Virus record (IMG/VR): IMGVR_UViG_3300020186_000084 | Span: 1-25,002 of that record | Direction: 5' to 3' (one strand) | From: a virus | DNA: 25,002 bases | Part shown: in pieces, positions 3,666-25,002 of the stretch | How positions within the stretch are numbered: position 1 is the first letter of the stretch | How the letters are laid out: every line of letters starts with the position of its first letter | The notes under the pieces: model-generated | Databases searched by the model: none | Seen by the model: only the letters and a program-made list of their open reading frames with translations | Told to the model about the DNA's origin: nothing | Made by a program: the position numbers and the translations under genes

Positions 3666-4154
3666 TTATTTTACAGCTGCTTTTATCAAAGCGAAAGCAG
3701 CTGAAGATCCCTGAGACAAAACTACTGGTTTTAACTCTGCCCACGTCAAACCTATTTTAAGTTCGTTGTGCGGCTTATCCACCATTTTCCAAGTTGCACC
3801 ACACACTAAGCCAATTTGTTGACACCCGTTAATGTAATCCACCCAAAACTCATGGTCCCATCTAGCTTTTCCGTCGGGATAGAATTTCGTCCAATCTGAA
3901 GCGCACCCATAATTATGTGGTGATTCCCAACCCTGCGCCTGTGTTTTTCTTCGTGCTTTGTGATCCCTGGTGCGTCCAATAGCATATAAAAAATCTTGCT
4001 CATTAGCGGATCGGATTCCACAATAGGGAGCCCAAAAGGAACCGTCTTCATATTTTATTTCTGCAAGGTACTCGCAAAGCGCTTCATATTTTGGCACGTA
4101 CAGACCATTGAGATTCACTTTAAAACGGTCAAATCGTTCAGCTTGATTCATCAT
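3666..4154 (-). CDS. Endolysin: M15-type zinc peptidase (162 aa)
   Basis: The motif SPHNYGCASD (residues 78-87) and the later WKMVDKPHNEL (122-132) match the zinc site of the VanY / L-Ala-D-Glu peptidase (M15) family: His80, Asp87 and His129 as ligands and Asp126 as the likely catalytic acid. M15 phage lysins such as T5 endolysin cut stem-peptide bonds in peptidoglycan. The length fits a single catalytic domain with no separate wall-binding part and no signal peptide, so release needs a holin. Its start overlaps the upstream membrane-protein gene by 4 nt (ATGA), and a small unknown and the spanin-like pair follow. Confidence 0.85.
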   Translation of the reverse strand: MMNQAERFDRFKVNLNGLYVPKYEALCEYLAEIKYEDGSFWAPYCGIRSANEQDFLYAIGRTRDHKARRKTQAQGWESPHNYGCASDWTKFYPDGKARWDHEFWVDYINGCQQIGLVCGATWKMVDKPHNELKIGLTWAELKPVVLSQGSSAAFALIKAAVK

Positions 4155-4357
4155 TTTTTTTGTTTCCTAAGAGATTCTTTTAAAAGGTATTCCATGGACA
4201 CGATGCGGTCTCGAATGTCTAAAAGGATAACATTTGAAATCTGCTCTTTTCGTTTTAGTTCTCCAACGTCAGCAGCAACGGCAGTTATGAAAGAAATCCC
4301 GCCACCTATTAAAACCAACAAGCCGATAGACACAGTTGAGTTTTCTGAAAGTTTCAT
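4151..4357 (-). CDS. Small one-helix membrane protein, holin candidate (68 aa)
   Basis: The start used is ATG 4357, seven bases after GGGG; a GTG three bases earlier is also possible. Residues 10-32 form one hydrophobic, Gly-rich segment (SIGLLVLIGGGISFITAVAA), followed by a charged helix ending LRKQKK. The N-out/C-in topology, basic C-terminus and immediate overlap with the endolysin gene suggest a single-segment holin or holin partner. Such proteins are too diverse to confirm by eye, and a non-lytic membrane anchor is possible. Confidence 0.6.
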   Translation of the reverse strand: MKLSENSTVSIGLLVLIGGGISFITAVAADVGELKRKEQISNVILLDIRDRIVSMEYLLKESLRKQKK

Positions 4358-6192
4358 CACCTAACCCCTATGCATGTTAGGTATCCGTCGTAGTCAGCCG
4401 ATGGTCCAAAAATAGTTCCAGCAGTCGTTGAGGTTACAGTTAAACCTGAACTGTTAGCAGCGGCTTTTGTGGAAAAAGTGCAGTAAGGAGCCGACGACCA
4501 AGTTCCCGCTGTAAATGTAATTGCACAACTGGTCGAAGATCTATTCCCAATGGTAGCTACAAACACAGAGCTTGTTTGAGATGTAATCGCAGAGGAAGCG
4601 TCACAGTTCAATTCAGCGGCTTCGATTCTTAAAGCTGCAACGTTACCGCTAGTAACCGAGCCAACTAAAAGAGGCACGTTGATACTTTGAGAAATTGGAA
4701 TGATAGAAATCTCAAGGTTCCTTACAGCGTCATTAGCAAGAGCACACGTTCCGGCCCCCGCATCTTTTCTGCCCTGAACGTTAAAAGTTAAAGTGCTTTG
4801 AGCCGTACTATATTCAAAAACTCCCATCAAAGATATCGGCGCTAAAGTCTGGTTTGTTGTATTATAAACTGCCGTGTAACCTTTTCCAGTAGTGCCATCG
4901 TGTATCTGCATCGAGCAGCTATCTCCACCGCCCCCCATTATGTTAGCTCCCTGAACCATGACTAGGTATTTACCAGCGGGAACATTATTAACGACCATCG
5001 CTGGAATTTTTGTTCCTGGTGCTACACCTGATCCACTTACAGTTGGAGTTGGGCAATCGGCATCTAAGGCTAAGTTTGCAAAGGACGCGCCTGAAAAAAT
5101 CCATGTGCAGTTTGCAGTTCCTGCGTATTTCAGAAAACCAAACTGCAGCATTGATTCAGGCCTAATGGCAATCTCTGAAGTTAAGGGGTATCTGTAAACC
5201 GCAATTGATACCTCGCGCCCAGATACGTCAGCGGCTAAGTTACACGTTCCAGCTTCAGCCCTTCCCTGAATATTAACCGTAAGACTTGATTGCGTAGTCG
5301 TGTAAGTAACTGGGCCTTCGAGTCCAAGTGGTGTCATGTTTTGTGATGCTGAACCGTAAAGAGTGCCAGATCCAAAATTACTAGTTCCGTCTGAAAATCT
5401 TATATTGCAAACGCCTGCAGATCCACTATTTATGAGTTGTCCTTGAGCAACAAAAACATAAACCCCTGGTTGGGCATTTGTAATTACAGCAGCGGGAATT
5501 TTAGTACCTGGCGCTGTAACCAACCCGTCAACAGTAGCCGTTGGACAGTCTGCATCAGCCGCGAAGTTGGCAAAAGACGCGGAAGACGTACTCCATGAAC
5601 ATGATGATGTACCAGCCCATTTAATAGAACCAACATATGTAGCCTGATTAACCTGGCTAACGTTTACAAAACTAGCATCGGAAATAAAACAGTTATCGAC
5701 ATTTATTTGTGGCTCGTCTGCCTGCGACTTAATTCGAATCGCTAGTGTGCCAGAACTTGGTGCAACCGTATTCACAGTCGTTGTTGCAAATGTTGATGTG
5801 GAACTAGTAATCGAAGTTAAACTTGATTCTGTAGTGCCGTCGAAAAGACCTATTAGATAGGTGGATGTGCCGCTGACTTCTTTTTTGATCATGCAACCAA
5901 AGACAATGTTCTTTCCGTGCATACCGCTAGGAATTGTTACAGCCTTAGATGTGAATGTCTGGCCAGTAGCTGAGGCGTCGATTTGCCCCGATCCTTTGCC
6001 GTACCCATAAATTGCTGTCGAGTGACTCATGCTCCCAGCGCTTGCAGTCCAACCAGCGATCTTCATTTCAAAACCAGGATTATAAACGATGTTCTCGACA
6101 CCACTTAAGCCGGCTTTTTGAATGTCTTGCAGTTGAGCATTGGCAGGTGTACATAAAAAAAGTGTAACAAGTAACGAAAATAAAATAATCAT
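4357..6192 (-). CDS. Secreted-type fibre or adhesin protein with signal peptide and duplicated Cys domains (611 aa)
   Basis: Residues 1-19 (MIILFSLLVTLFLCTPANA) look like a Sec signal peptide with cleavage before Gln20. Residues 35-175 resemble a galactose-binding/carbohydrate-binding jelly roll (NPGFE, then DNCF at the end). Two homologous domains follow, about 187-337 and 351-500, each with cysteines at the same spacing (198, 216, 262, 317 and 362, 380, 426, 483). A C-terminal domain (about 510-611) has four more cysteines. The regular cysteines suggest disulfides, which fits export. The gene overlaps the tail-fibre gene upstream and the holin candidate downstream by 1-4 nt, so it is a late gene. 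It may be a virion fibre, or a protein delivered to the host surface. The signal peptide is odd for a virion part. Confidence 0.8.
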   Translation of the reverse strand: MIILFSLLVTLFLCTPANAQLQDIQKAGLSGVENIVYNPGFEMKIAGWTASAGSMSHSTAIYGYGKGSGQIDASATGQTFTSKAVTIPSGMHGKNIVFGCMIKKEVSGTSTYLIGLFDGTTESSLTSITSSTSTFATTTVNTVAPSSGTLAIRIKSQADEPQINVDNCFISDASFVNVSQVNQATYVGSIKWAGTSSCSWSTSSASFANFAADADCPTATVDGLVTAPGTKIPAAVITNAQPGVYVFVAQGQLINSGSAGVCNIRFSDGTSNFGSGTLYGSASQNMTPLGLEGPVTYTTTQSSLTVNIQGRAEAGTCNLAADVSGREVSIAVYRYPLTSEIAIRPESMLQFGFLKYAGTANCTWIFSGASFANLALDADCPTPTVSGSGVAPGTKIPAMVVNNVPAGKYLVMVQGANIMGGGGDSCSMQIHDGTTGKGYTAVYNTTNQTLAPISLMGVFEYSTAQSTLTFNVQGRKDAGAGTCALANDAVRNLEISIIPISQSINVPLLVGSVTSGNVAALRIEAAELNCDASSAITSQTSSVFVATIGNRSSTSCAITFTAGTWSSAPYCTFSTKAAANSSGLTVTSTTAGTIFGPSADYDGYLTCIGVR

Positions 6193-7649
6193 CCGAATTT
6201 TACCTCTGTTGAAGATGGGATCATTGAAAGGTCTGAAGTTGAAGTGTCAGTGCCTCTATACAAACGAACTCTAATCAAATCGCCTGCTGCAATAGCAACA
6301 GCGTTTATTTGTCCTGATGAATCAGTTAAATCTAAAGACGATCTACAAATAACTTTAGTCGCACCTGTTTGAGCGGTATTAGTAGTTGTCCTTTGATTTG
6401 TAGTGTTGTCAAAAGCTGTGCCGATTGGAATTAAAGTTGCTTGTGCTGAAAGCAATTGCGTAGCGCTTGCAGCTTGATGGTAATGGTTTACGTACATGAA
6501 AATCTGTCCGCCTGCCGTGTACCCTTGAGGAACTTTTACAGTGCAATATAAACTTTGATCGGCTGTGTCAGTGTAGACGTAAACCTCGTTATTAAATTCT
6601 ACTGTAAGAAGGGGAGCGTCCGAATCGGCAGTCCACCTGATAACAGCACTGCTAGTTAGTCCACCACCGCCGCCACCCGAACCGCCTACAATTCTCCAAC
6701 GTGCAGTTGTTAAATCATAGTTGAATAATAGAGATGCATTTATAGCCATCGTCACTGTAGTAGCTGTGCCGGTTAGTATTCTATTACCAGCGGTAGATGC
6801 TCCGTCTTCGTTTAGAATTCCAACAGTAACACCTGTTACGTTGTGAAGAACAAACCACATAATTCCAGTTGGTGCGGTAATCCCTCCAACACTAACTAAA
6901 CTACCGCTTGTGGCGCGAACGTTCATAGTCGTTGGTGTTGCTAATGTAATACCTGTGCCTGCCGTTGCGTTATCGGCAGAAGTTCCATTCAAAGCGTTAA
7001 CTAAAGTTTTAGCTCCCGCAAATGACTGAGCAGCGGTTGTAACAACTCCACCAAAAGAAGCGCTGGCCGGTTGTAGCGTTAAGGCTTGCGCAGAGAGTGA
7101 CGCCGCGTTTGCATTTGGCGTTCCACCAATTGTGGCAAGAGTTACGTCACCGTTGTTAACATTGGAAACCGTTGCGCCGGCAGCGCCTACAGTTAAATCG
7201 CCGTTCATTTCGATTGTTCTGCTGGCGTCGTTTACGTTTAAAGTTAAGGTTCTATCGGACGACAAAGCCGAATCGTTTTTTAGAAGCAAGAAAAGACCAT
7301 CAGCGCCGAATTCCTGCAATCGATAGGTTAGATTTAGCCATCGACCAGTACCAGCGGTTGGTGCGACAACGAAATAGTCATCGCCAGCAACTGCGCTGCT
7401 TGATTCAAACATGAACTGCATTCGGGAGGTCTCAACAAAACGATTTTGTTTGTCCGCACGATCCGCTGCCGAAACGTCTTTAAGAGCTGCAATATCTGCT
7501 ACCGCTGCGCCAACTGTTGTGACAGAAGTATAGTTTGTCTGTAGATATGTCAGCGTGACTAAATCGCTTGCGTCCGTTGGCGTGCCTGCCGTGGGATTCG
7601 TCGCAGTTTCGGCACCATTATTGAAGTCGTACTGTCTCACTTTTGACAT
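6189..7649 (-). CDS. Tail fibre / receptor-binding protein (486 aa)
   Basis: The N-terminal 110 residues include a repeated phage-fibre style (DLVTLTYLQTNY, then FVVAPTAGTGRWL). A Ser/Thr/Ala/Gly-rich shaft follows, including SFGGVVTTAAQSFAGAKT (about 198-215), typical of trimeric fibres. A Gly linker (about 322-330) separates a C-terminal domain with alternating strands that would be the receptor-binding head. There is no signal peptide. AAAGGA precedes the ATG. It lies between the tail-tip gene and the signal-peptide fibre gene and overlaps the latter by 4 nt. Host receptor cannot be read from the sequence. Confidence 0.75.
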   Translation of the reverse strand: MSKVRQYDFNNGAETATNPTAGTPTDASDLVTLTYLQTNYTSVTTVGAAVADIAALKDVSAADRADKQNRFVETSRMQFMFESSSAVAGDDYFVVAPTAGTGRWLNLTYRLQEFGADGLFLLLKNDSALSSDRTLTLNVNDASRTIEMNGDLTVGAAGATVSNVNNGDVTLATIGGTPNANAASLSAQALTLQPASASFGGVVTTAAQSFAGAKTLVNALNGTSADNATAGTGITLATPTTMNVRATSGSLVSVGGITAPTGIMWFVLHNVTGVTVGILNEDGASTAGNRILTGTATTVTMAINASLLFNYDLTTARWRIVGGSGGGGGGLTSSAVIRWTADSDAPLLTVEFNNEVYVYTDTADQSLYCTVKVPQGYTAGGQIFMYVNHYHQAASATQLLSAQATLIPIGTAFDNTTNQRTTTNTAQTGATKVICRSSLDLTDSSGQINAVAIAAGDLIRVRLYRGTDTSTSDLSMIPSSTEVKFG

Positions 7650-7664
7650 TGTTTTAGTTCCTTT

Positions 7665-9791
7665 TTAAGTGTTGTCATCGAGACCCTTTTGATCGTCTAA
7701 AATTAAAGTCACCCTGTTCGCACCTTTACTAACTTCTGTAACGGTTGCCGTTCTCACGCGTTCGGTACCTTGCAAGAAAGTGAATCCGGGTAGCTTTTCT
7801 CTAGAGATTGTATATCGATCATTAATTAGTGCATCGAAGAATCGCCTTGAGAGCGACAACTTGTACTGAGCTTTTCGATCACCATAAACGTATAAAAGTT
7901 TGTTTGCTAAACTTTCAGCCGTTGTGTCGTCTATGTTGTAAGAGCTAAAAGTCTTACTCGATTTTGATTTGTGCAAATAATTAGCAAGGTTGCTTTTCAC
8001 TTGAGTAGTCTTTTCTCGGAATTCTGTCTCGCCAGCCTTTTCCCCGCGCTCACGATAGTCAGATTTTAAAATAATGTTGTAAGCAATATCGCTATAGGTC
8101 AGCGAGCAACTAATGCCCTTTACAATGTCGTCGTCGTAAATTGTATCGTCGGCGACGCTTGACGCTTCAATTGCTGCTATTGACCACTTGTTTTCGTTAT
8201 TGATGAAAAGCCTACAGAAGCTCGTTAGTAAAATCTTATTAATTATGTCTATGTATGTAGGATAGTCGGAGCCAATGTCTTGAGGAATTGCGAAACCCAT
8301 TTGATCGTTGTTCGTAAGATCGACAGCCGCAAATGATGCTATGTCGATTTGAGCGGCAGCGATTCCAACAAAGCTCAGAAGGATTTGATAAATAATAGCT
8401 GGGCCAGTAGTTAACACACCATACGTTGCGCTTGGTGCTCCAACGCCTGAACCTTCGGCGATTCCATAAACGTCAGCGATAAGTGAGTCGTAATGCGTGA
8501 TAGGTGTTGTTAAACCTAAACTTGCTTGATAGCCGGCAATAAAGGTAGCGCGCAGCAAACCATTACTTACGTCTAAAGTGTAATGCGTGCCGTATACAGC
8601 TTTTTTAACGACGTTGTTCTGTTCAATAAATATTCTTGGCACGTTTGCCCGATAGTTATCGTTTCCAGAAAGTGTTCTGTCTGGAAAAGTGTAGTTTGTA
8701 TTTATTGTAATGAACTTTCCAGAATAGTCGACAGCCGTTACAGTTCTGATACTTGAGACAAAGCTTGATACTAACTCGACTGTGTCACCGACAAGAAAGT
8801 TTTGCGTGTACACAACTGATGTAAAATAAATCTTATTGGTCAGCGAACCGTAAGTCATCGTTGGTGACTCTGCCATGTAGTCATCGATCTTAATTAAACC
8901 AGAAGCGGAACTGTTATCGTTAAAGTAGATTCCCCAAACCGCGTTATCTGACTCAAGGTTTGCTGTGCTAGTGTAATCAATGTTTACTATCTTTAGACCT
9001 CTAATGTACCCGTAAACGCGCCTTTTAGGCTTGCCAATATAGGATGGGTCGGTGGCGGGAAACTCAGATATATTATAAAAGTCTGACGCTGAACCGGATT
9101 GGCTTGTTCTAAATTCCTGGTTTAGCAAATCATAAGAGTCAAGAATTTGAAATGTAACTCGTTCTTGATTCCAGGACACGCTTCCGACAGTTGCCCTCAG
9201 GAACTGATTTAAATTAGCAACTGTCAAATCACCAACAACATGCCAGCCCTCAATGTCTGTCTTGTAAAAACTACTATCATGAATCATTGCCGTGATTTTG
9301 TGATCAGTATTTGCAATATCAGCCGTTGTTGATGTGATCGGAGCAAATCCTAGCAACTGATCCCCTACGGCTTGCTTAGTTTCTGGAATGCTTAGTAGAT
9401 AAGGCTCCCAGTGAACAGTCTCCGTTGCGCTGTCGGTTGGTGTTTCATACCAATCCTTTTCTCGATTGCTATAGTGATTTCTAAAACTAGCAATCAAGTG
9501 ATTTGTTGGGATCGAAGCGTTTGGATCAGTCGTAATATAAATGTAAAGACGCTGATTCAAGTGATCATAGTAGAATTCACTGTTAGCTGTAAGGCCTGCT
9601 GTAGTTGTTTCGCGCGTATAATTTGCGCCGCCGTTATAGTTTACTTGGAAAACATACCCGTAAGTAAATGGCGTGTACCATATGTTGCCCGATAGATTTG
9701 TCCAAGCGGACACGATCCGGCTACGTGCCGAAATGCGAATCATAAAGAACTGCTCTTTATGTTGTAGATCAAGGTTAACGGCGTAGGTCAC
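7665..9791 (-). CDS. Tail tip / baseplate hub-like protein (about 708 aa)
   Basis: This large protein sits directly after the small tail-tip genes and before the fibres, the position of the central tail-tip (J/Tal-like) protein. Beta-rich segments dominate; the part around residues 490-560 of the longest frame (DIGSDYPTYIDIINKILLTS and the following WSIAAIEA) resembles hub proteins. I choose GTG 9791 as start because its last base overlaps the upstream TGA as GTGA, the coupling style used throughout the operon. ATG 9743 (AAGAG upstream) and GTG 9830 (43-nt overlap, no ribosome site) are alternatives. No peptidase or lysozyme motif is obvious. Confidence 0.7.
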   Translation of the reverse strand: MTYAVNLDLQHKEQFFMIRISARSRIVSAWTNLSGNIWYTPFTYGYVFQVNYNGGANYTRETTTAGLTANSEFYYDHLNQRLYIYITTDPNASIPTNHLIASFRNHYSNREKDWYETPTDSATETVHWEPYLLSIPETKQAVGDQLLGFAPITSTTADIANTDHKITAMIHDSSFYKTDIEGWHVVGDLTVANLNQFLRATVGSVSWNQERVTFQILDSYDLLNQEFRTSQSGSASDFYNISEFPATDPSYIGKPKRRVYGYIRGLKIVNIDYTSTANLESDNAVWGIYFNDNSSASGLIKIDDYMAESPTMTYGSLTNKIYFTSVVYTQNFLVGDTVELVSSFVSSIRTVTAVDYSGKFITINTNYTFPDRTLSGNDNYRANVPRIFIEQNNVVKKAVYGTHYTLDVSNGLLRATFIAGYQASLGLTTPITHYDSLIADVYGIAEGSGVGAPSATYGVLTTGPAIIYQILLSFVGIAAAQIDIASFAAVDLTNNDQMGFAIPQDIGSDYPTYIDIINKILLTSFCRLFINNENKWSIAAIEASSVADDTIYDDDIVKGISCSLTYSDIAYNIILKSDYRERGEKAGETEFREKTTQVKSNLANYLHKSKSSKTFSSYNIDDTTAESLANKLLYVYGDRKAQYKLSLSRRFFDALINDRYTISREKLPGFTFLQGTERVRTATVTEVSKGANRVTLILDDQKGLDDNT

Positions 9792-10267
9792 GTTAGCACC
9801 GCATCGATAAATGTCATTTGCCACGGCCACTCGAAAACTTTTCGCATTTCAGATGTGGCAGTTGTTGTGTTTATAGGATTTGGAAAACTTTTTAATACAG
9901 CTAAATGGGAAGCATCGCTAAAAGTGTAGCTTGTTGCCTGTAGCACTGCCCAATACGTATCGTCCGCTTCTAGAACGGCGTCGTCAAATTGAAAGTAAAT
10001 CTCTCGAATAGCATTGTTTAGAGTATAAATATTGGCAGGCTGATAGCTCGTGGTGGAAGATTTAATAACAATGCCAGGCGCAGAAGTTTGAGCGTTATTT
10101 GAGTAAATCTTCATTGTGAGGTTTGCAAAAATGGGCGAGTTATACGCAATAATCCAAAGCCTGACAGCCCTAAGTGTTGCATGCCGCTTTAAGATAAAGG
10201 CCTGCTTTGTAGCAGTTGCGCTTAGCTCCCCGGTTTCGATGACCGAGCCCCACCAAGTTCTAGCCAT
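9788..10267 (-). CDS. Tail-tip accessory protein, beta-sandwich (159 aa)
   Basis: The start at 10267 (MARTWWGS) is chosen because AGGAG lies 8 nt upstream; an ATG at 10321 would overlap the previous gene by 53 bases. The body has a repeated strand pattern (FILKRHATLRAVRLWI, then LTMKIYSN, then DTYWAVLQ) that looks like a jelly-roll or carbohydrate-binding sandwich as often found in phage tail tips. It is expressed between the distal-tail-type protein and the hub-like protein, so a structural or receptor-contacting role at the tail tip is the likely job. Confidence 0.65.
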   Translation of the reverse strand: MARTWWGSVIETGELSATATKQAFILKRHATLRAVRLWIIAYNSPIFANLTMKIYSNNAQTSAPGIVIKSSTTSYQPANIYTLNNAIREIYFQFDDAVLEADDTYWAVLQATSYTFSDASHLAVLKSFPNPINTTTATSEMRKVFEWPWQMTFIDAVLT

Positions 10268-10268
10268 T

Positions 10269-11405
10269 TTAAAGCTCCTCTCGAAGAGCCATCTTAGTTG
10301 AGAAATTATTAGGAGAATCAAGAGAGATTTTAGGAGATTGGAAAAACTTTACGTACTTGCACCATTTCTGTTTTTGAGTTGAGAATGCTTGTTCATTGTC
10401 CATGATGATGAAAAACTGTTTGGCAGTTCCAAAGTCAGCAAAGATATTCTTTAAACTTTCAGCGTCTGTTTTTGTTAGAAAGTTAAGCTCGTAAGCAAAC
10501 GCCTGTCGTTGAGGCCTTATATCGGAGAGTATAACGCCTGACTCGGTTTCAACATTCACGGATAAATCGATTTGCTCGTCTTCGAATCCCCATTGCTCAG
10601 ATGCTCTGTCAACGTCCCAAACAGAACCAAAGTACACGTTTGAAAGTTCGATATAAAGAAGTGGGTTTTCTCTGTCGATTATTTGAACCCTCCAATACCT
10701 GAGAGCTTGCGTGTGTAATCCGGCTACCACCGCCTTGTATATTGATTCCTCGTGATAGCTAAGAGTCGTCGTGTATTCTGGTGCTGTCCAGACGTCGGTC
10801 GAGTTGCCTTGAATCTTAATTACGGCATCGGTTGATAGATGTATTGGCTCGTTTCTTTTCCCTATCAAGACGACAGCTTTAAGATTTGAGGAAATGCCAA
10901 GGTCAACCTTGATCCACTCGTCGGTATGTATTCTTAATGAATCACTCGTGTAGGTTGTGGCACCTGTGTCGTGAGCAGCGTTAGAAAATCCTAGAATGTC
11001 ATAAGCTGTGCACAACACGTCTAGCCATCGAAGCTGAAACGCTGTAGCGCCACCGGATAAGTCTGATGTGATAACAAATTTTCCTGTAGAAACGTTTTGG
11101 GTAACCGTATAATTTGCGGCTCCCGTAGCTTCCAGTGCTGTATCTACGGCAGTCATAAACAGTGCAATGGTGGCGTAGTTACCTTCGGCAATTGTTGCCG
11201 TCTTATCTGTGGTTATGTCGTCGCGAAAAATAATCGTTTTATTGGTACTCGTTACTGTGAAGTTTCCAGTTGAGCGCCAAACCTTACCGCGCCTTTGAAA
11301 CGCATTTAGGTTTGATGCAGGAAACGAAGAATTTTGAGATGAGTAAGAAATCGCGCTAGCAACGTCTGTATCAAGAAAGTTTTGATCACAAATTAAGAAT
11401 CCCAT
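10269..11405 (-). CDS. Distal tail-type protein with discoidin-like fold and inserted module (378 aa)
   Basis: The beginning PASNLNAFQRRGKVWRSTG and a later WIKVDLG with VLIGKR resemble the ends of a discoidin-like (F5/8 type C) domain. Between them, about residues 48-157, lies a roughly 105-residue module ending TTYTSDSLRI that also occurs in the major tail protein. The C-terminal part (about 260-378) is beta-rich, as in proteins just below the tail tube. The gene follows the tape measure gene without any gap (TAAATG). The position matches Dit-like / minor tail M-type proteins. Confidence 0.7.
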   Translation of the reverse strand: MGFLICDQNFLDTDVASAISYSSQNSSFPASNLNAFQRRGKVWRSTGNFTVTSTNKTIIFRDDITTDKTATIAEGNYATIALFMTAVDTALEATGAANYTVTQNVSTGKFVITSDLSGGATAFQLRWLDVLCTAYDILGFSNAAHDTGATTYTSDSLRIHTDEWIKVDLGISSNLKAVVLIGKRNEPIHLSTDAVIKIQGNSTDVWTAPEYTTTLSYHEESIYKAVVAGLHTQALRYWRVQIIDRENPLLYIELSNVYFGSVWDVDRASEQWGFEDEQIDLSVNVETESGVILSDIRPQRQAFAYELNFLTKTDAESLKNIFADFGTAKQFFIIMDNEQAFSTQKQKWCKYVKFFQSPKISLDSPNNFSTKMALREEL

Positions 11406-13376
11406 TTATGCTATCCTGAAATTTCTGTTATTAAGTTGAAAAATGGCGTTAGCTAATTCACTCTCGCCAACTTGAACTGTTACGTTAACCATTTGTGATG
11501 ATCCCTGACTGCCAGCTAGGAATGATCTAAGATCGTTTGATAACGTCCTATCGATTACTTCCTCGCCTGGTGTGAGTTTCGCAGAAATACGATCCGAATA
11601 AGGAGCACCGCCGGGTACAGTTCCGCCATCAGCAAAGAATAACTCACTTAAGCCGCCTGTTAGAATACCGGCACCGATACGGGCAGCTGTTCCGCCAGCG
11701 CCTCCGCCAGCAGCATCACTGATTTTGCTTCCACCACCATTGAAGGGGTTAACGGCGTCAATAATCGCTTGGGCCATTCTTGGCGCTTCAGCTATTAAAG
11801 CTTGCACGAAACTGATGGCGATTTGCGGCATTTGCGACACTAGGTTTGTCATGAATTGAGGAGCAAGCCTTATCAACTCAGTAATCAGTTTAGGAGCGGC
11901 TTTTGCTAGCTCGTCTGTGATCACTGGAATTGCTTTGATTATATTTTCGATTACAGCAGGTAACGCCTGAGCAAAACCTTGAACCATAGTTCGCACATGC
12001 TCTGGGCCCTTAGCTAGCTCGGTTACAATCTCACTGACAGGACCAGCGAATTGAGGGCCGAACATAGCCCCTGCTGCGGCACCAGCGGCACCAGCAACTA
12101 ACTGTGCTGCTCCAGACGGGCCTTTAAGAACCGCTGAGAAAATGCCGACAATGTCACCAGCTAGTTGTTGCTGAACTTGTGTGAGATTTATTTTTCTAAC
12201 TTCAATTTCAAGTTTTGCGGCTATGCCTGCGCCAGGACTTTTAACTGCATCGGCAAAAAACTTGCCTGATTTTAAATTCTTTTCAAACTCTTCGCGTACC
12301 TTTTCAGCGTCTTTGCGCAATTCTTCTAAGGCTTTTGAATTGTCTTCAATGGCCTTGCTGTTGTTGCCAAAACCTTTTGATTCCTTATCGAGTCCTGCAA
12401 TAGATCTAGCCTGAGTGTCTATAAGTTTTTCCCTAAAAACAGTTATGGAAGCAATGCTGTTTTCAAGGTTATCAAGGTCTTTTGTTGTTTGTTTTACGCC
12501 TTGAGAATCACCGAGAGCCCTTGCGAGGGCGTGAGCGGCTAGAACCGCACCGTACACAACTTTCTGAAAAAGCAAGAAACCTTCGACGGCTAATAGCATG
12601 CTGCCATTAACAAAATCACGTAAAACGCTGCCGTTTTTAATTACAATTATCGCAAATTCTTTGAACAGTTGGCCTACAATGCTTATTCCTGCGATAACCG
12701 CTTTATTTTGAACAATGTAATTACCTAATGTTTCTAAAAGGTCAGAGAATGCATTTTTAGTGCGCGTAAGGCTACCCTCAAAAGTTTGTCCGGCAGCCGT
12801 TGACGCCCCTTTAAACCTTTCCTCAATAAACCTTAACGCCGCTCCACCTTTGAAAGCTTCCTCTGAAAGCCCTCTAAGTTGGGGAATGTTTCTTGATATG
12901 GCACCGCCAGCACCTTGAAGTGATTTTGCCAATAACTCCGTTGCCGAGGAGAGATCAATACCTAAAACCGAAGCCAAATCAGCAGCGGCAGGAACCAATC
13001 TTTTTGTTTCATCATTTGAGACGCCTAAGGATTTTGCAAGCGCAATGGCGCTTAAGGCTGCTTCATCGGAGAATTTTGAAGTGTCTTGAATTGAACCGGC
13101 TAAACTTTCGAAATCCCTTTGCGATTGGTCAGAGAAATCACCGGCTAGCTTTAAAGAAACAACCATTCCGTTCAGTGCTTCTTGCGCAGCGGAAGCCTCA
13201 TCAATAATCTTATTGAATGTAACCACACCAACGATTGCCGCTGCCGCCACCTTTAATAATGAGAAAGCATTTTCAACAGATTTTACAGATTTGGAAGCGT
13301 CTTTAGAAAAACTATCAATACTTTTTGCAGCGGAGGAAACATCGGCTTTAAGAATCATGTCGACAATTGAAGCCAT
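11406..13376 (-). CDS. Tail tape measure protein (656 aa)
   Basis: It has the usual tape measure profile: helical, Ala/Ser/Lys-rich N-terminus, hydrophobic segments near residues 40-56 and about 225-275, a charged coiled-coil stretch around 335-370, then Ala/Gly-rich and amphipathic repeats (PAVIENIIKAIP, APKLITELIRLAPQ) and a small C-terminal domain. GGAGG sits 9 nt before the ATG. It is preceded by the frameshifted chaperone genes, as in lambda-type tails. With about 1.5 angstrom per residue, a tail of roughly 100 nm would be expected, which is inference. No muramidase or peptidase motif is visible. Confidence 0.9.
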   Translation of the reverse strand: MASIVDMILKADVSSAAKSIDSFSKDASKSVKSVENAFSLLKVAAAAIVGVVTFNKIIDEASAAQEALNGMVVSLKLAGDFSDQSQRDFESLAGSIQDTSKFSDEAALSAIALAKSLGVSNDETKRLVPAAADLASVLGIDLSSATELLAKSLQGAGGAISRNIPQLRGLSEEAFKGGAALRFIEERFKGASTAAGQTFEGSLTRTKNAFSDLLETLGNYIVQNKAVIAGISIVGQLFKEFAIIVIKNGSVLRDFVNGSMLLAVEGFLLFQKVVYGAVLAAHALARALGDSQGVKQTTKDLDNLENSIASITVFREKLIDTQARSIAGLDKESKGFGNNSKAIEDNSKALEELRKDAEKVREEFEKNLKSGKFFADAVKSPGAGIAAKLEIEVRKINLTQVQQQLAGDIVGIFSAVLKGPSGAAQLVAGAAGAAAGAMFGPQFAGPVSEIVTELAKGPEHVRTMVQGFAQALPAVIENIIKAIPVITDELAKAAPKLITELIRLAPQFMTNLVSQMPQIAISFVQALIAEAPRMAQAIIDAVNPFNGGGSKISDAAGGGAGGTAARIGAGILTGGLSELFFADGGTVPGGAPYSDRISAKLTPGEEVIDRTLSNDLRSFLAGSQGSSQMVNVTVQVGESELANAIFQLNNRNFRIA

Positions 13377-16845: not shown

Positions 16846-17160
16846 TTAATTATCCAAACCGTACTCTGCTTTTACTTCTACCAGCATTTGCGCAACAAGT
16901 TCCTGCACGAAAGCTTCGTCTACCGACAGTGCTTTGTTCTCGCTTGGTAAGCCGATACACTCTGATCTAATTACTGTGATATCTGGCTTATCGTTTTGTT
17001 TGAGCAAGAAACTAACTTTCACACACGCTTGGTAAAGCGTTACAATCTTTTCTGATTTAAGGTTCAAATCAGCTTCTATCTCATTAACAACGACCGAGGA
17101 ATAAATTACTGGCGTTTCTACTTCTACTACGCTTGAGTCAATTATTTTAATATCTGGCAT
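16846..17160 (-). CDS. Hypothetical protein, head-tail region (104 aa)
   Basis: Begins MPDIKIIDSSVVEVETP after a clear AAGGAGATTTC site. The N-terminal half is strand-rich and acidic; the second half contains a helix (VDEAFVQELVAQMLVEVKAE). I do not recognise it. Because it directly precedes the presumed connector and terminator genes, it may be a small head-completion protein. There is no membrane segment or metal site. Confidence 0.65.
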   Translation of the reverse strand: MPDIKIIDSSVVEVETPVIYSSVVVNEIEADLNLKSEKIVTLYQACVKVSFLLKQNDKPDITVIRSECIGLPSENKALSVDEAFVQELVAQMLVEVKAEYGLDN

Positions 17161-17169
17161 GAAATCTCC

Positions 17170-18255
17170 TTAGTTAAAAACTACAAAGCCAACTGATGTT
17201 TCAGCTGTTGCAGATGCGTTTAATGTTATCGTAAATGAACCGGCAGCAGGTACAACGTTTTTAATTATTGCCGTCGAGTCATTGGTTCTAACCATTGCAT
17301 GAACGATGCTACTTGTTGTAACTAAAGAATTTGTAACAACGAGCGACGATGCTGCCGCTGCAAAGTTAACAGTTCCCGAAGGCTTGTTAATAGTTTGAGC
17401 GCCTGTTGTGCCGCCTGCTGTGTTTGTCGCGTCCATTGCGATTTTGCCGAAATTGTTTACAGAAAATTTTGAAGCTCCACCTACTTGAAGATCAGCAAGT
17501 AGCTTTAAACCGCTGCCTGTGCTGGTTTCTGTAGAGTTAATTTTTAACGCTGTGTAACCTGCCGTGCTAGTCTGGTTAATTATCGGCGCAATTTGTGCAA
17601 ATGTTTGTAAGCTACTGGCTGCTGTTAACTCACCAGCCGCTCCGACTGAATCAACGTTTAGGCCTATAGGCGTAGCCGTTACTACACTATCTACTGCTTG
17701 CTGGACGTGGACAAGAGAGCTTGGAGCCGCAGTTCCAATGCCTACGTTGCCTGAGGGGTCAATGTAAAATCTGGTGGTTCCCGCTGTTGGGGACCCGCCT
17801 ACTGCTGTACTTTGATTAACGACGTAGTCACCGTAAACAACCACATTGGAACCAGCAAACCAGTTGCGAGCCGCTGCGTTCGCTGAGTCACTATCCATTC
17901 GAATACCAGATAAGGTTGTACTTAGAACTCTCAGTGGTGGAACAGCACCAGTTTTTTGAACATCTAAGGGGAACAATGGACCGGTGACGCCAATGCCTAA
18001 TCGTTTGTTGGTGTTATCCCAAAAATAGTTATCGTTGTCTTGAGTGTACACGCCACTTGCTCCGGCAAAAATCGAAGAGCCTAAAGTAAATTGTGTTGAG
18101 GTTCCTGTGCCGCCATTACCAACACCAAGAATTGAGGGTGACCCTGTGAAACCTAGTCTTGATTTTAATTGAGAAATTGCGACGCCGTTGACCATTTGAG
18201 AATTGGCCCAAGACGTACTTAGGAAAAGAATAATGTAAAAAATGTTTTTTATCAT
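17170..18255 (-). CDS. Signal-peptide fibre protein with GIGT shaft motifs (361 aa)
   Basis: The N-terminus has a basic start (MIKN), a hydrophobic stretch to about residue 17 and a likely cleavage at NSQ (residues 18-20), like a Sec signal. Then come GVGNGGTGTST (about 44-54) and two shaft motifs, KRLGIGVTGPLFPLDVQ (about 84-100) and GNVGIGTAAPSS (about 169-180), both common in trimeric phage fibres and in Bdellovibrio surface fibre proteins. The C-terminus is beta-rich. The gene overlaps the upstream small capsid-region gene by 4 nt, so it is read on the late message. It lies between head and tail genes, far from the other fibres. Whether it is packed in the virion or exported is open. Confidence 0.8.
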   Translation of the reverse strand: MIKNIFYIILFLSTSWANSQMVNGVAISQLKSRLGFTGSPSILGVGNGGTGTSTQFTLGSSIFAGASGVYTQDNDNYFWDNTNKRLGIGVTGPLFPLDVQKTGAVPPLRVLSTTLSGIRMDSDSANAAARNWFAGSNVVVYGDYVVNQSTAVGGSPTAGTTRFYIDPSGNVGIGTAAPSSLVHVQQAVDSVVTATPIGLNVDSVGAAGELTAASSLQTFAQIAPIINQTSTAGYTALKINSTETSTGSGLKLLADLQVGGASKFSVNNFGKIAMDATNTAGGTTGAQTINKPSGTVNFAAAASSLVVTNSLVTTSSIVHAMVRTNDSTAIIKNVVPAAGSFTITLNASATAETSVGFVVFN

Positions 18256-18569
18256 TCCGCCAACCCTTCAACTATATGCAAGTTGCCACTTGTTACGGAT
18301 CGGATAACTGCGACCTTTTGTCCGGGGACAACGCCGTAATATTCTACGATTCCACCAGGGAAGAAAATGCCACTACTGGTAGCCGTTGGGTTAGCACCAA
18401 AGACTAGAAAGCAATCTTCTGTAGAATAAAATCTAGCGATAGAAACGTTTGCAGAAAAAGCTGCGCTTTGCCCTGACGTTCCAGTAAAAGCGACGGTTGC
18501 TATAGCGACAGGAAAAATCGAAGTGTATTTTTGCTGCGAGATTCCGATATTCGGTGCTTTTGAAGCCAT
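18252..18569 (-). CDS. Small structural protein, capsid region (105 aa)
   Basis: Start at 18569 (MASKAPNIG) follows AAAGGGG at about 7 nt; a longer frame starting at 18590 lacks such a site. The sequence is strand-rich with aromatic and Gly patches (IARFYSTEDCFLVFG, then FFPGGIVEYYGV), a small beta-barrel style seen in head decoration or fibre-attachment proteins. It overlaps the fibre gene downstream by 4 nt, so it might anchor that fibre to the head, which is inference. It is not recognised as a known family. Confidence 0.65.
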   Translation of the reverse strand: MASKAPNIGISQQKYTSIFPVAIATVAFTGTSGQSAAFSANVSIARFYSTEDCFLVFGANPTATSSGIFFPGGIVEYYGVVPGQKVAVIRSVTSGNLHIVEGLAE

Positions 18570-18593
18570 TTGAAAGCCCCTTTCATACAACTT

Positions 18594-19267: not shown

Positions 19268-20140
19268 CTAGACTCCGATTCCACTTGAAGCAGCAGTTGC
19301 CCAAATGTGTTTCTTAGATCCGTCTACGCCTAATTTTGCGCCCAACAAGAAATCAACAGAGATGACATATCCAAATTGTTTGTTTGAGTGCAAATCAGAA
19401 ATCTTGAAACGTGGCTGAGATTGCATAACAAGGTACATGAAATCAGGGTGGAAGAACAAACCTTTGTCGGCACCGCGTGAATCATCTTCAAGAATGTTGA
19501 AACCCATTCGTTGTTGCGAAATCTGTCCACCGATAACTGGCTTGTCATCTACGTAATCAGCAGAGGTGAGAGTTGTCGAATTCAACACGTCAGCGTAGTA
19601 GCTAGGATCTACCAAACCGTACCAGCCTTTTTCTCTCGCCCATTTTGCTTGTGCAGCAAGTAAACGAATAGCAGACACTTGTGCAGCGTCCATTGCTGAG
19701 ATGCTGTTTAGCAAATGATCAGGAGAAGATGTGGAAGGACTAACAAGGCTATAAAGATAGTTGTTAAGCTTTTTCATTGCGCCGAACATTAGAGCGTCAC
19801 GAATAACTGACTCTTTGCTTTCAAGTTGGGTGAGAACAGAAGCAGTTTCTTGCAATTCAAAAGAGTGCACGATGCGTTTGTTTACAACGACGGCAACTTC
19901 TTGAAATGCCATTTGTGTGCTTTCAAAAACGTCAGCGTCCGTGCCAACAGTTCTAATTTGACCTTCAGAGTCAACAAGCTGGGATACTGTAACTTGGTCG
20001 CCTTCCTTCTTGATGTCGCCTGTGTACTCTTTATTAACAAGAGACGCTAAAAGCATTTTCTCGCGAAGAGCGGGCATGAATTGCGGTGCCCAGAATTTTT
20101 GAATTTGCTCGGTTAGAAGATTGATATCGGTTACTGACAT
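19268..20140 (-). CDS. Major capsid protein (290 aa)
   Basis: Located after the scaffold gene and before the small capsid-associated genes, with an excellent GGAGGAATCACCAAA site. The sequence shows a helical N-terminal arm (TEQIQKFWAPQFMPALREKM), strand-rich middle (GDQVTVSQLVDSEGQIRTVG), a spine-like helix (AISAMDAAQVSAIRLLAAQAK) and a capsid-style FFHPDFMYLVMQ stretch, in the manner of P22-like/HK97-fold coat proteins. The size is ordinary. There is no cleavage motif that I can point to, and a separate scaffold gene exists, so proteolytic maturation is not evident. Confidence 0.85.
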   Translation of the reverse strand: MSVTDINLLTEQIQKFWAPQFMPALREKMLLASLVNKEYTGDIKKEGDQVTVSQLVDSEGQIRTVGTDADVFESTQMAFQEVAVVVNKRIVHSFELQETASVLTQLESKESVIRDALMFGAMKKLNNYLYSLVSPSTSSPDHLLNSISAMDAAQVSAIRLLAAQAKWAREKGWYGLVDPSYYADVLNSTTLTSADYVDDKPVIGGQISQQRMGFNILEDDSRGADKGLFFHPDFMYLVMQSQPRFKISDLHSNKQFGYVISVDFLLGAKLGVDGSKKHIWATAASSGIGV

Positions 20141-23284: not shown

Positions 23285-24667
23285 TTACTCTCTCATTTGA
23301 GTTCGTTGTCTAGTGTTCATTATGCTGATTTGATGAATCCAATATGTGACGGCAGTTGTTACGTGTTGAAATGAATCGGAGTCATCTTCTAAGTATTGCC
23401 CGCCTTTTTTTAATTTCGTAAGCCTTAAGCCTTCGTCAACTACTTGCGCATCACTGTAGCAGAAGAAATTGGTAGCGCCAGCTTCGTTGAGAAAATGTGC
23501 ATTGGCTAGGTTATGTCTTTTTCTGACAGCAGGATTGTCTCTCGGTACATGCTTTTCTACTTCGAGAGATGATCCGTCGGATCTTTTATAGTTCTGAAGA
23601 AACTTCATAATGATATCGTAATCAGAATGAATTGATCGGGTGTCTCTTCGTGCTCCCGTCGAGTCGCCGAATACTCTAAACGTTGTTCTGTTCTCGAATA
23701 AATTAGCGGCAGCCATTTCTTCTAGGATGTCCAAAGTTCTAGCCCCAGCAACTACGAAATCTTTAGCAACGTGAAACTGATTGGCAATAACCTGTCCGGC
23801 ACAGGCAGACATTGGCTTCCCATTTCCGATGTTAAAGTCGAACGCGATGTCGATAGGGTTTAAATCATTCCATTCATATTTATAATCACGGTAGCAACGA
23901 TCAGACGTGTAGGCGTAATAGACGACTTCCTCATTAATTTCTGTCCACTCTCCATAAAGCAATCGTTTAGCCATCTTTGGATCAATGGTGTCCTTTAAGC
24001 CTTGTATGTATTCTTTAGGTAAGAAAGGATTGTCCTCAGTCTTTGAGTAATAAACGTGTCTGTTTCTATGTTTTTTGCTGATGAAATGTTTATACACGGG
24101 GTGGCGCGGAGAGTCCGGGTTAGTCGCCATCATGATCCACTTTTCCGGTACGTGTTGCAATCTTCCTACGCGCGCGTATAGCTCATCATAAAAGCCCCAG
24201 TGCTCAGCGTCCGATTCGGTACCTTCCTCGATAGCCGCTGCTGATAGTTCTAATGATCTAAACTTTTTAAAGTCTTTGTCATACCAGGAACGGGAGGCAA
24301 TCTCAGAACCGTTTCTAAAATAAAAACGATTGGCAGCCTTGTTGTGTCTGTAGTCTTTTCCCTCAACGAGGGTGCCGCGCATGTGCTCTAATATTTTTTG
24401 CAACAGAGTTTCTTTTAAGTCCTGCATTTTTAGACGACCTGCCAGCACGCGAGAGTGATGAAATAGAAGGCAGTGGGATAGGACCATGTGGGCAACTAAA
24501 ATTGACTTAGCCGATCCGACAGAGCCAGACAGTAAAATCTCTTGAGTACCCTGAGTGTAATCAAAACGTTTTCTGATGTCGTACAGCACACGATATTGCA
24601 TCGGGATGAGTTTAGGATCGAACTCAGAAAAGTTTGGAGTTGACGTTGATAACAGAGGCGAGTTCAT
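23285..24667 (-). CDS. terL: Terminase large subunit (460 aa)
   Basis: ATPase part: Walker A GSVGSAKS (48-55), acidic Walker B-like AAAIEEG (143-149), and the coupling motif ATNPDS (181-186). Nuclease part: first Asp in DIAFDFNIG (273-277), VFGDSTG (332-338, Asp335), and a late acidic pair in LEDDSDSF (426-433), the RNase H-like metal site. The enzyme translocates and cuts genome DNA at the portal. It overlaps the small subunit gene by 4 nt (ATGA). The length and motif spacing are normal, so it is likely active. The packaging strategy (headful or cos) cannot be read here. Confidence 0.92.
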   Translation of the reverse strand: MNSPLLSTSTPNFSEFDPKLIPMQYRVLYDIRKRFDYTQGTQEILLSGSVGSAKSILVAHMVLSHCLLFHHSRVLAGRLKMQDLKETLLQKILEHMRGTLVEGKDYRHNKAANRFYFRNGSEIASRSWYDKDFKKFRSLELSAAAIEEGTESDAEHWGFYDELYARVGRLQHVPEKWIMMATNPDSPRHPVYKHFISKKHRNRHVYYSKTEDNPFLPKEYIQGLKDTIDPKMAKRLLYGEWTEINEEVVYYAYTSDRCYRDYKYEWNDLNPIDIAFDFNIGNGKPMSACAGQVIANQFHVAKDFVVAGARTLDILEEMAAANLFENRTTFRVFGDSTGARRDTRSIHSDYDIIMKFLQNYKRSDGSSLEVEKHVPRDNPAVRKRHNLANAHFLNEAGATNFFCYSDAQVVDEGLRLTKLKKGGQYLEDDSDSFQHVTTAVTYWIHQISIMNTRQRTQMRE

Positions 24668-25002
24668 TCCGCCGGTTCTTTATCCAAATTGTAATTTAAA
24701 GTTAAATTTGAATTGTCCTGTGAGCCGCCTTCGTCGACGCCGCAGAAAGCTTTCATGGAAAAAATCCAAATCGGTGCGTTCACTCGCGACATTCCAGTCG
24801 GCAAATTAAAGACACCGGCAACACCTACGCGCTCAAAAAACATTCTACGTTTTTGAGTACCAATCTTTTTAGCTTCGTTAAAATTTGGATGTTTTGATTC
24901 CCACGTGTAAAGCAAATCGACACATACGTCTATTGAAGCGGAGAAGGTTTCGTATGAGAGCCCTTTTGCCATGTGATCGACGAGTAGCTGGCAGAACTTA
25001 GG
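24664..25002 (-). CDS. terS: Terminase small subunit, 5' end outside window (113+ aa)
   Basis: The frame continues to the window edge upstream of the first internal Met (24972): PKFCQLLVDHMAKGLSYETF reads as one protein, so the gene starts further right. The segment HMAKGLSYETFSASIDVC followed by LYTWESKHPNFNEAKKIG is the helix-turn-helix style DNA-recognition domain of small terminases. The C-terminal part (about residues 60-113 of the visible portion) contains an oligomer region and ends EPAE. It recognises the packaging site and recruits the large subunit. Confidence 0.8.
   Translation of the reverse strand, partial: PKFCQLLVDHMAKGLSYETFSASIDVCVDLLYTWESKHPNFNEAKKIGTQKRRMFFERVGVAGVFNLPTGMSRVNAPIWIFSMKAFCGVDEGGSQDNSNLTLNYNLDKEPAE

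Follow-up and report, generated by a model that had tools for sequence, protein, structure and literature searches.

A fibre protein of 361 aa that begins with a putative Sec signal peptide is encoded in the late operon of the window (the whole stretch of DNA analysed here, an entire virus record of 25,002 bases), and fibre-like proteins with signal peptides recur in further phages. We consider it very probable that such signal-peptide fibres are exported, because orthologues of these fibres have been found both with the peptide and lacking it, because cysteine numbers after peptide removal are even, and because a strict sequence heuristic is passed by 11 of 14 related or analogous phage signal-peptide fibres as against 1 of 171 control ORFs. 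More tentatively, we posit that several unrelated tailed phages of predatory Bdellovibrionota may export receptor-binding fibres through Sec, mature them in the periplasm (often with disulfides) and attach them to virions no earlier than lysis, with the signal peptide as a movable module gained and lost on ordinary fibre genes. The usual view is that tailed phages produce their tail fibres, and attach them, in the cytoplasm. To our knowledge, no tailed-phage fibre bears a Sec signal peptide and no tailed phage adds Sec-exported fibres to its virions, and the available portions of the open-licence literature did not describe Sec signal peptides for the fibres of tailed phages. An earlier note on this DNA had proposed an exported or head-bound fibre; as a whole, its interpretation is partly supported, and its word 'undescribed' was not contradicted by the literature covered.

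A fibre gene with a putative secretion signal

The N-terminus of the fibre (MIKNIFYIILFLSTSWANSQ) combines a charged n-region with a hydrophobic core and a small-x-small site, and is a putative signal peptide by heuristic, also in the comparison with Bdellovibrio MAT fibres below; all signal-peptide calls were made with our own sequence heuristic (a strict and a looser version). A GAAGG stretch lies ~8 bases 5' of the fibre ATG. On sequence inspection, the sole nearby internal start, M21, lacks a ribosome-binding-like stretch, and no better internal start was found, which speaks against the later start skipping the hydrophobic part that the earlier note had named as a refutation. The gene lies, as that note had it, between capsid and tail genes, with the capsid candidate upstream and tail genes downstream (Table 1), and it is linked to a small capsid-region gene: its ATG overlaps the 112-aa ORF by the last 4 bases of the latter. 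This overlap argues for coupling. Of the promoter and terminator of its own that a Lom-like moron would have, no sigma-70-like site was seen directly upstream of the fibre gene on its own strand, and a terminator-like stem stands before the 112-aa gene. Lambda Lom, as described in the available parts of PMC12309495, is an outer membrane protein with a signal peptide coded between tail genes; it is thus like the window fibre a signal-peptide protein among tail genes, but it is a beta-barrel and not a fibre. A terminator-like stem with a T-run at 18669-18644 follows the gene preceding the 112-aa and fibre genes and could set the expression level of these two. The second signal-peptide fibre that the earlier note placed in the same operon is indeed there, and its start, MIILFSLLVTLFLCTPANA followed by Q, is signal-peptide-like.

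Table 1 Positions of features in the window and in related phage records (a slash marks the putative cleavage site; record handles are introduced in the text).
Feature	Record	Positions	Strand	Basis or remark
Fibre ORF, 361 aa, putative Sec signal peptide	Window	17170-18255	-	ATG start
Putative signal peptide, ~residues 1-18, cleavage near WAN/SQ	Window	18202-18255	-	Sequence heuristic
Shaft, with GIGV (87) and, at the distal seam, GIGT (172)	Window	17746-18201	-	Not DNA-alike in L002, a 54-base patch excepted
C-terminal tip, residues 280-361	Window	17173-17418	-	AF2 pLDDT 87.5, modelled alone
Stretch 94.5% identical to L002 over 894 bases	Window	16859-17746	-	DNA comparison
104-aa ORF without signal peptide	Window	16846-17160	-	Starts 9 bases past the fibre stop
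Small ORF, 112 aa	Window	18252-18590	-	ORF list; stop overlaps fibre ATG
Major capsid protein candidate	Window	19268-20140	-	PHROG 283, E 5.2e-11
Second signal-peptide fibre-like ORF, 611 aa	Window	4357-6192	-	Same operon; 14 Cys after peptide
Fibre-like ORF without signal peptide, 486 aa, candidate ordinary tail fibre	Window	6189-7649	-	PHROG 4302
Holin-like ORF, 69 aa	Window	4151-4360	-	Family common to L002, L111 and G146 prophage
phi1422 gp68, 614 aa, MKFMIAFIIALFSVTMATA/Q	L094	40429-42273		Directly after tail-fibre gene gp67
phi1422 gp75, 170 aa, MKSFAFLFILLFGFLAQA/S	L094	44298-44810		
Podovirus fibre with signal peptide	L112	8620-9858		
Podovirus fibre with signal peptide	L130	5930-7168		

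Shaft and tip of the fibre

After the signal peptide, the protein consists of a low-complexity beta shaft followed by a C-terminal tip. Shaft motifs described by the earlier note as GIGT stand for one motif, at residue 172; the other, at residue 87, reads GIGV, so that its wording was slightly off. Searches with the 361-aa fibre gave no Pfam family and a best E of 0.0016 in PHROGs. By sequence, the best solved relative of the shaft (residues 153-210) is Bd2133 (PDB 8ond; phmmer E 1.5e-8), a Bdellovibrio MAT fibre, and the kinship with Bdellovibrio surface fibre proteins envisaged before is thereby borne out. According to the available parts of PMC10769870, MATs are mosaic adhesive trimers, and in all 21 of them the signal peptide is followed by a domain of ~130 aa; in the light of the same portions, MAT fibres and the window fibre are alike in having a signal peptide (putative in the latter), a related beta shaft and swapped tips, whereas the window fibre is without the ~130-aa N-domain, measures 361 aa against typically ~1,000, and sits in a phage late operon. 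An HMM of the MAT N-domain, built from eight genome-encoded ORFs, scored at least 176 bits for members among the matches listed and -0.2 bits for the 361-aa fibre; the domain is absent from the 12 phage signal-peptide fibres compared, with a best score of 7.4 bits (phi1422 gp68). MAT membership of the window fibre was rejected on this absence; judged by its sequence, the fibre works partly like a MAT without being a member.

Structurally, the full-length AF2 model has a pLDDT of only 38, in contrast to the tip modelled alone (Table 1). The tip model superimposes on the C-terminal domain of the Klebsiella phage K64-1 (S2-4) tailspike (VIA Z 8.5, rmsd 1.8 A over 68 residues), and gave Z 7.0 against phage Pam1 and Z 6.3 against Sf6; Foldseek against the PDB gave a best E of 0.039, which is not significant, and comparison with predicted viral proteins a best E of 8.6e-8. 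By this model, the tip is a tailspike-type, predicted receptor-binding fold, the nearest solved folds being C-terminal domains of phage tailspikes. With phage tail fibres and tailspikes (K64-1 S2-4, Pam1, Sf6) the window fibre thus shares its tip fold, a late operon with structural genes and tip exchange, and differs from them in its putative Sec signal peptide.

Fibre tips shared with a podovirus-like phage

Both window fibres are also carried by IMG/VR record IMGVR_UViG_3300020057_000099 (35,655 bases; L002 and overlapping loci), which is otherwise a different, podovirus-like phage. DNA common to the two records is limited to three stretches, namely the 94.5% stretch of Table 1, which spans the distal half of the 361-aa fibre from residue 170 and most of the 104-aa gene, an identical patch of 54 bases (17989-18042, fibre residues 72-89), and a stretch of 97.0% identity over 865 bases that runs from residue 334 of the 611-aa gene to its end and a bit into the next gene. 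In the 361-aa fibre, the seams of shared DNA coincide with GIG motifs, and the near-identity of its distal half argues that tips have been exchanged between unrelated phages. For both fibres, the N-termini in the two phages are unrelated in sequence and signal-peptide-like (that of the 607-aa L002 fibre has this appearance but fails the strict heuristic), and the presence of such mutually unrelated N-termini on exchanged tips argues for selection on the signal peptide. The 104-aa ORF, which moves together with the tip (90% identical in L002) and for which homologues were found only in L002, is possibly a tip-specific helper.

Genomically, the L002 counterpart of the 361-aa fibre is located after or beside lysis genes, in a region (5347-12651) where five signal-peptide fibre-like ORFs have lysis genes among them; beyond the two shared with the window, these are of 525, 114 and 273 aa. 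Across the whole L002 record, one other fibre-like ORF was seen, of 157 aa and without a signal peptide.

Proposed gain and loss of the signal peptide on podovirus fibres

In a podovirus family, a fibre of the type of gp75 (a signal-peptide protein of phage phi1422, see below) adjoins a large gp10-like tail gene. This fibre starts without a signal peptide in 14 contigs (L115, L122-L128, L132, L110, L113, L114, L116 and L118, with L127 and L128 nearly identical), nearly all of which have either no upstream room for a peptide or a ribosome-binding stretch before the plain start; L118 passes the looser heuristic only. A signal peptide immediately precedes the same N-terminal domain in L112 and L130, which form one lineage, and in L002, and it precedes a different fibre-type N-terminus in L111. 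L130 passes the strict test and L112 fails it, since the rule forbids Asn in the core. That the N-terminal domain is kept suggests that the exported fibre would still bind its usual partner, which favours a virion role. L119, without signal peptide and without the N-terminal domain, stands outside the 14 contigs. Dropped before counting were L131 (a frame-shifted L130), L108 (the G146 prophage, by exact sequence match) and, as repeats, L109 (phi1422), L117 (L002), L121 (L115) and L129 (L112); the apparent frame-shifted copy in L131 lies at ~5640-6840 and affects the signal-peptide part.

A cultured Bdellovibrio phage and two prophages

Bdellovibrio phage phi1422 (NC_019525) encodes two signal-peptide fibre-like proteins, gp68 and gp75, both annotated as hypothetical; signal peptides are not mentioned in the available portions of its genome paper (PMC3391216). 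Like the window fibres, these fibre-like proteins start with signal peptides and are coded at the operon's tail end, but they belong to different sequence families (611-aa protein against gp68, BLASTP E 0.81); the 273-aa signal-peptide ORF of L002 is a homologue of gp75 (E 2e-12). Genomes were searched in the phylum of L020, a Bdellovibrionales MAG with a MAT-like ORF, and one of them contains a phi1422-like prophage stretch (L151, G071:C12:98000-112000) with the same operon end. Its gp68 homologue bears a signal peptide (34.8% over 282 columns, E 4.7e-26), and its gp75 homologue, of 165 aa, does not, starting with MSFINLDESITKNKL where gp75 has its mature start SFWIPDGSVTNKKL (residue 19; E 5e-5). 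Among 191 genomes, a profile of gp68 and the G071 homologue matches G071, by construction, and G146 (E 5.6e-7), and it matches 0 of 200 genomes in a second phylum; the gp75-family profile matches in 18 of 191 and 5 of 200 genomes, mostly inside the repeat region. The prophages in G146 and G071, both from the phylum of the Bdellovibrionales MAG, have one signal-peptide fibre-like ORF each. A pattern shared among phages of Bdellovibrio-like hosts, in line with the shared strategy that the earlier note had surmised, finds support in phi1422 and these two prophages. In phi1402 and MAC3UK, by contrast, signal peptides were found on lysis-type proteins only and no signal-peptide fibre was seen, which counts against generality among Bdellovibrio phages.

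Heuristic pass rates and cysteine parity

The strict-test failures among the 14 phage signal-peptide fibres are the 607-aa and 273-aa proteins of L002 and the fibre of L112, and the single control passing among the ORFs of at least 250 aa in 22 control loci is a marginal one from phiPLPE. Amino-acid composition alone gives 3-4% strict-test passes, and random 60-residue draws with the composition of the 361-aa fibre passed in 854 of 20000 cases, so that a single case is not decisive; it is recurrence in other phages that lifts above chance the signal-like N-terminus present on this exported-looking fibre-type protein, as the earlier note had described it. Within the morphological group of phi1422 (Aeromonas 56, ZF40, phiPLPE, CP-T1), 6 of 152 ORFs of at least 150 aa pass, and no plain tail fibre is among the six: by annotation, ZF40 contributes a lysis protein together with the hypothetical ORF that follows it, phiPLPE its lysozyme, its holin and an ORF named 'tail-fiber/lysozyme', and phage 56 a hypothetical ORF in a version read from a TTG start.

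After peptide removal, the number of cysteines is even in 12 of 12 fibres (14, 0, 2, 14, 2, 0, 4, 8, 2, 10, 2 and 0) and also in a 13th, the G071 homologue, added later; in four fibres the total is odd, one cysteine being within the peptide. By comparison, 71 other late-region ORFs of at least 100 aa from four of these phages have even numbers in 21 cases, odd numbers in 26 and none in 24. With the G071 homologue included, 10 even against 0 odd compares with 21 against 26 (Fisher p 0.0012), a value that deserves less weight than it suggests, since the ten include several homologues. Such even counts agree with disulfides being formed outside the cytoplasm.

Host of the window phage

In the phylum of the Bdellovibrionales MAG, 4 of 191 genomes contain a match to the 611-aa protein (E 1.0e-9 to 3.3e-37), as do 3 of 200 in the phylum of a Methylosinus genome (E 5.6e-5 to 1.1e-4); for the phylum of a Chitinophaga genome the count is 1 of 198 (E 4.4e-5, with a match that stops inside). 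The best match of this protein (E 3.3e-37) is a signal-peptide ORF of 765 aa on contig G146:C76, at the tail end of an apparent prophage with, by eye, terminase-, portal-, tape-measure- and integrase-like ORFs; two of the genome-encoded matches show MAT-like N-domain residues, again by eye. The distal part of the 361-aa fibre likewise matches 4 of the 191 genomes. The holin-like family, present in the window, L002 and L111, matches the G146 prophage (E 2.6e-5), with 0 matches in 15 loci without signal peptide and four control phages; phi1422, phi1402, MAC3UK and the G071 prophage likewise gave none. An o-spanin comparison with Bdellovibrio phages gave 7 bits, and the portal family gave one weak match in the 191 genomes. 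The matches of the two fibres and of the holin-like family point to a host of the window phage that probably belongs to the phylum of the Bdellovibrionales MAG, Bdellovibrionota. The GIGT shaft motif was rejected as host evidence, since one scan found it in 65 loci across many phyla, one of them Bdellovibrionales.

Competing explanations and implications

From a functional perspective, we lean, with due caution, towards a Sec-exported receptor-binding fibre that meets virions at lysis and joins them or acts beside them. A receptor-binding fibre of trimeric type would enter the host Sec system during late expression, its signal peptide would be cut off and the fibre would fold in the periplasm; lysis would then open the cell, and the fibre would meet finished particles, joining them or acting beside them as a receptor-binding part. 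Recombination at the GIG shaft motifs would swap tips among phages that have a host in common, probably one of the Bdellovibrionota. We infer cleavage, export and the trimer, with virion joining and the host of the window record the least certain elements. A virion part added at lysis is favoured by the tail-locus orthologues, the tailspike-type tip, the absence of the MAT anchor domain that would hold the fibre on the cell, and the tight late-operon coupling. Against joining stand the gp68-type proteins, which keep the peptide in both phages seen, and the window fibre itself, which has no recognisable virion-binding N-domain. In addition, the window phage, phi1422 and the two prophages all also keep fibre-type ORFs without signal peptide, which suggests that the exported fibres may be accessory.

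The main rival, which we regard as possible if rather doubtful, has the exported fibre stay on or near the infected host, as a predator coat, as a mask of receptors (superinfection exclusion) or as a MAT-like prey adhesin. The kinship of the shaft with Bd2133 speaks for it, as do the genome-encoded matches of the 611-aa protein, with the MAT-like residues of two of them, and the precedent of Lom (available parts of PMC12309495), as well as the fibre-type ORFs that the same phages retain without signal peptide; however, the fibre has no MAT N-domain, no anchor or barrel was seen in it, no sigma-70-like site precedes it directly on its strand, and its tip is of tailspike type, with orthologues lacking the peptide that are ordinary tail-locus phage fibres. 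Those same orthologues weigh against free decoy fibres that, released at lysis, would saturate receptors on debris and spare progeny. Such decoys, which we think very improbable, would be in keeping with an exported window fibre that has no recognised anchor and with the several such fibres per phage. Some room, if little, must be given to a hydrophobic N-terminus that stays uncleaved, either as a membrane or particle anchor or as the chance hydrophobic start of a cytosolic fibre: the pass rate of random draws is what one would cite for this, against which stand recurrence with unrelated sequences, the small-x-small sites, the four proteins whose cysteines are even only after peptide removal, and the low control rate. 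A head fibre anchored to the capsid, an idea raised in the earlier note and suggested by a gene directly after those for capsid and decoration-like proteins, was rejected and is the least credible of these readings, for the gene does not keep company with head genes in relatives: L005, related in large terminase, major capsid protein and tail-region ORFs, has no fibre at that place, and in L002, whose background is unrelated, this fibre follows lysis genes.

If some fibres are exported first, a phage part usually thought to be built inside the cell may leave the cytoplasm before it is used, assembly need not finish before lysis, and fibres may make use of disulfides and periplasmic folding. 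The finding ties phage fibres to the MAT adhesins that let Bdellovibrio recognise its prey, and it suggests that tips pass between phage and predator; the cultured phi1422 makes the idea testable at once. As a separate observation, a small-terminase-like ORF of the window (24664-24972) matches the TerS of phi1422 (44% over 52 aa) and also 23 Vibrio phage records.
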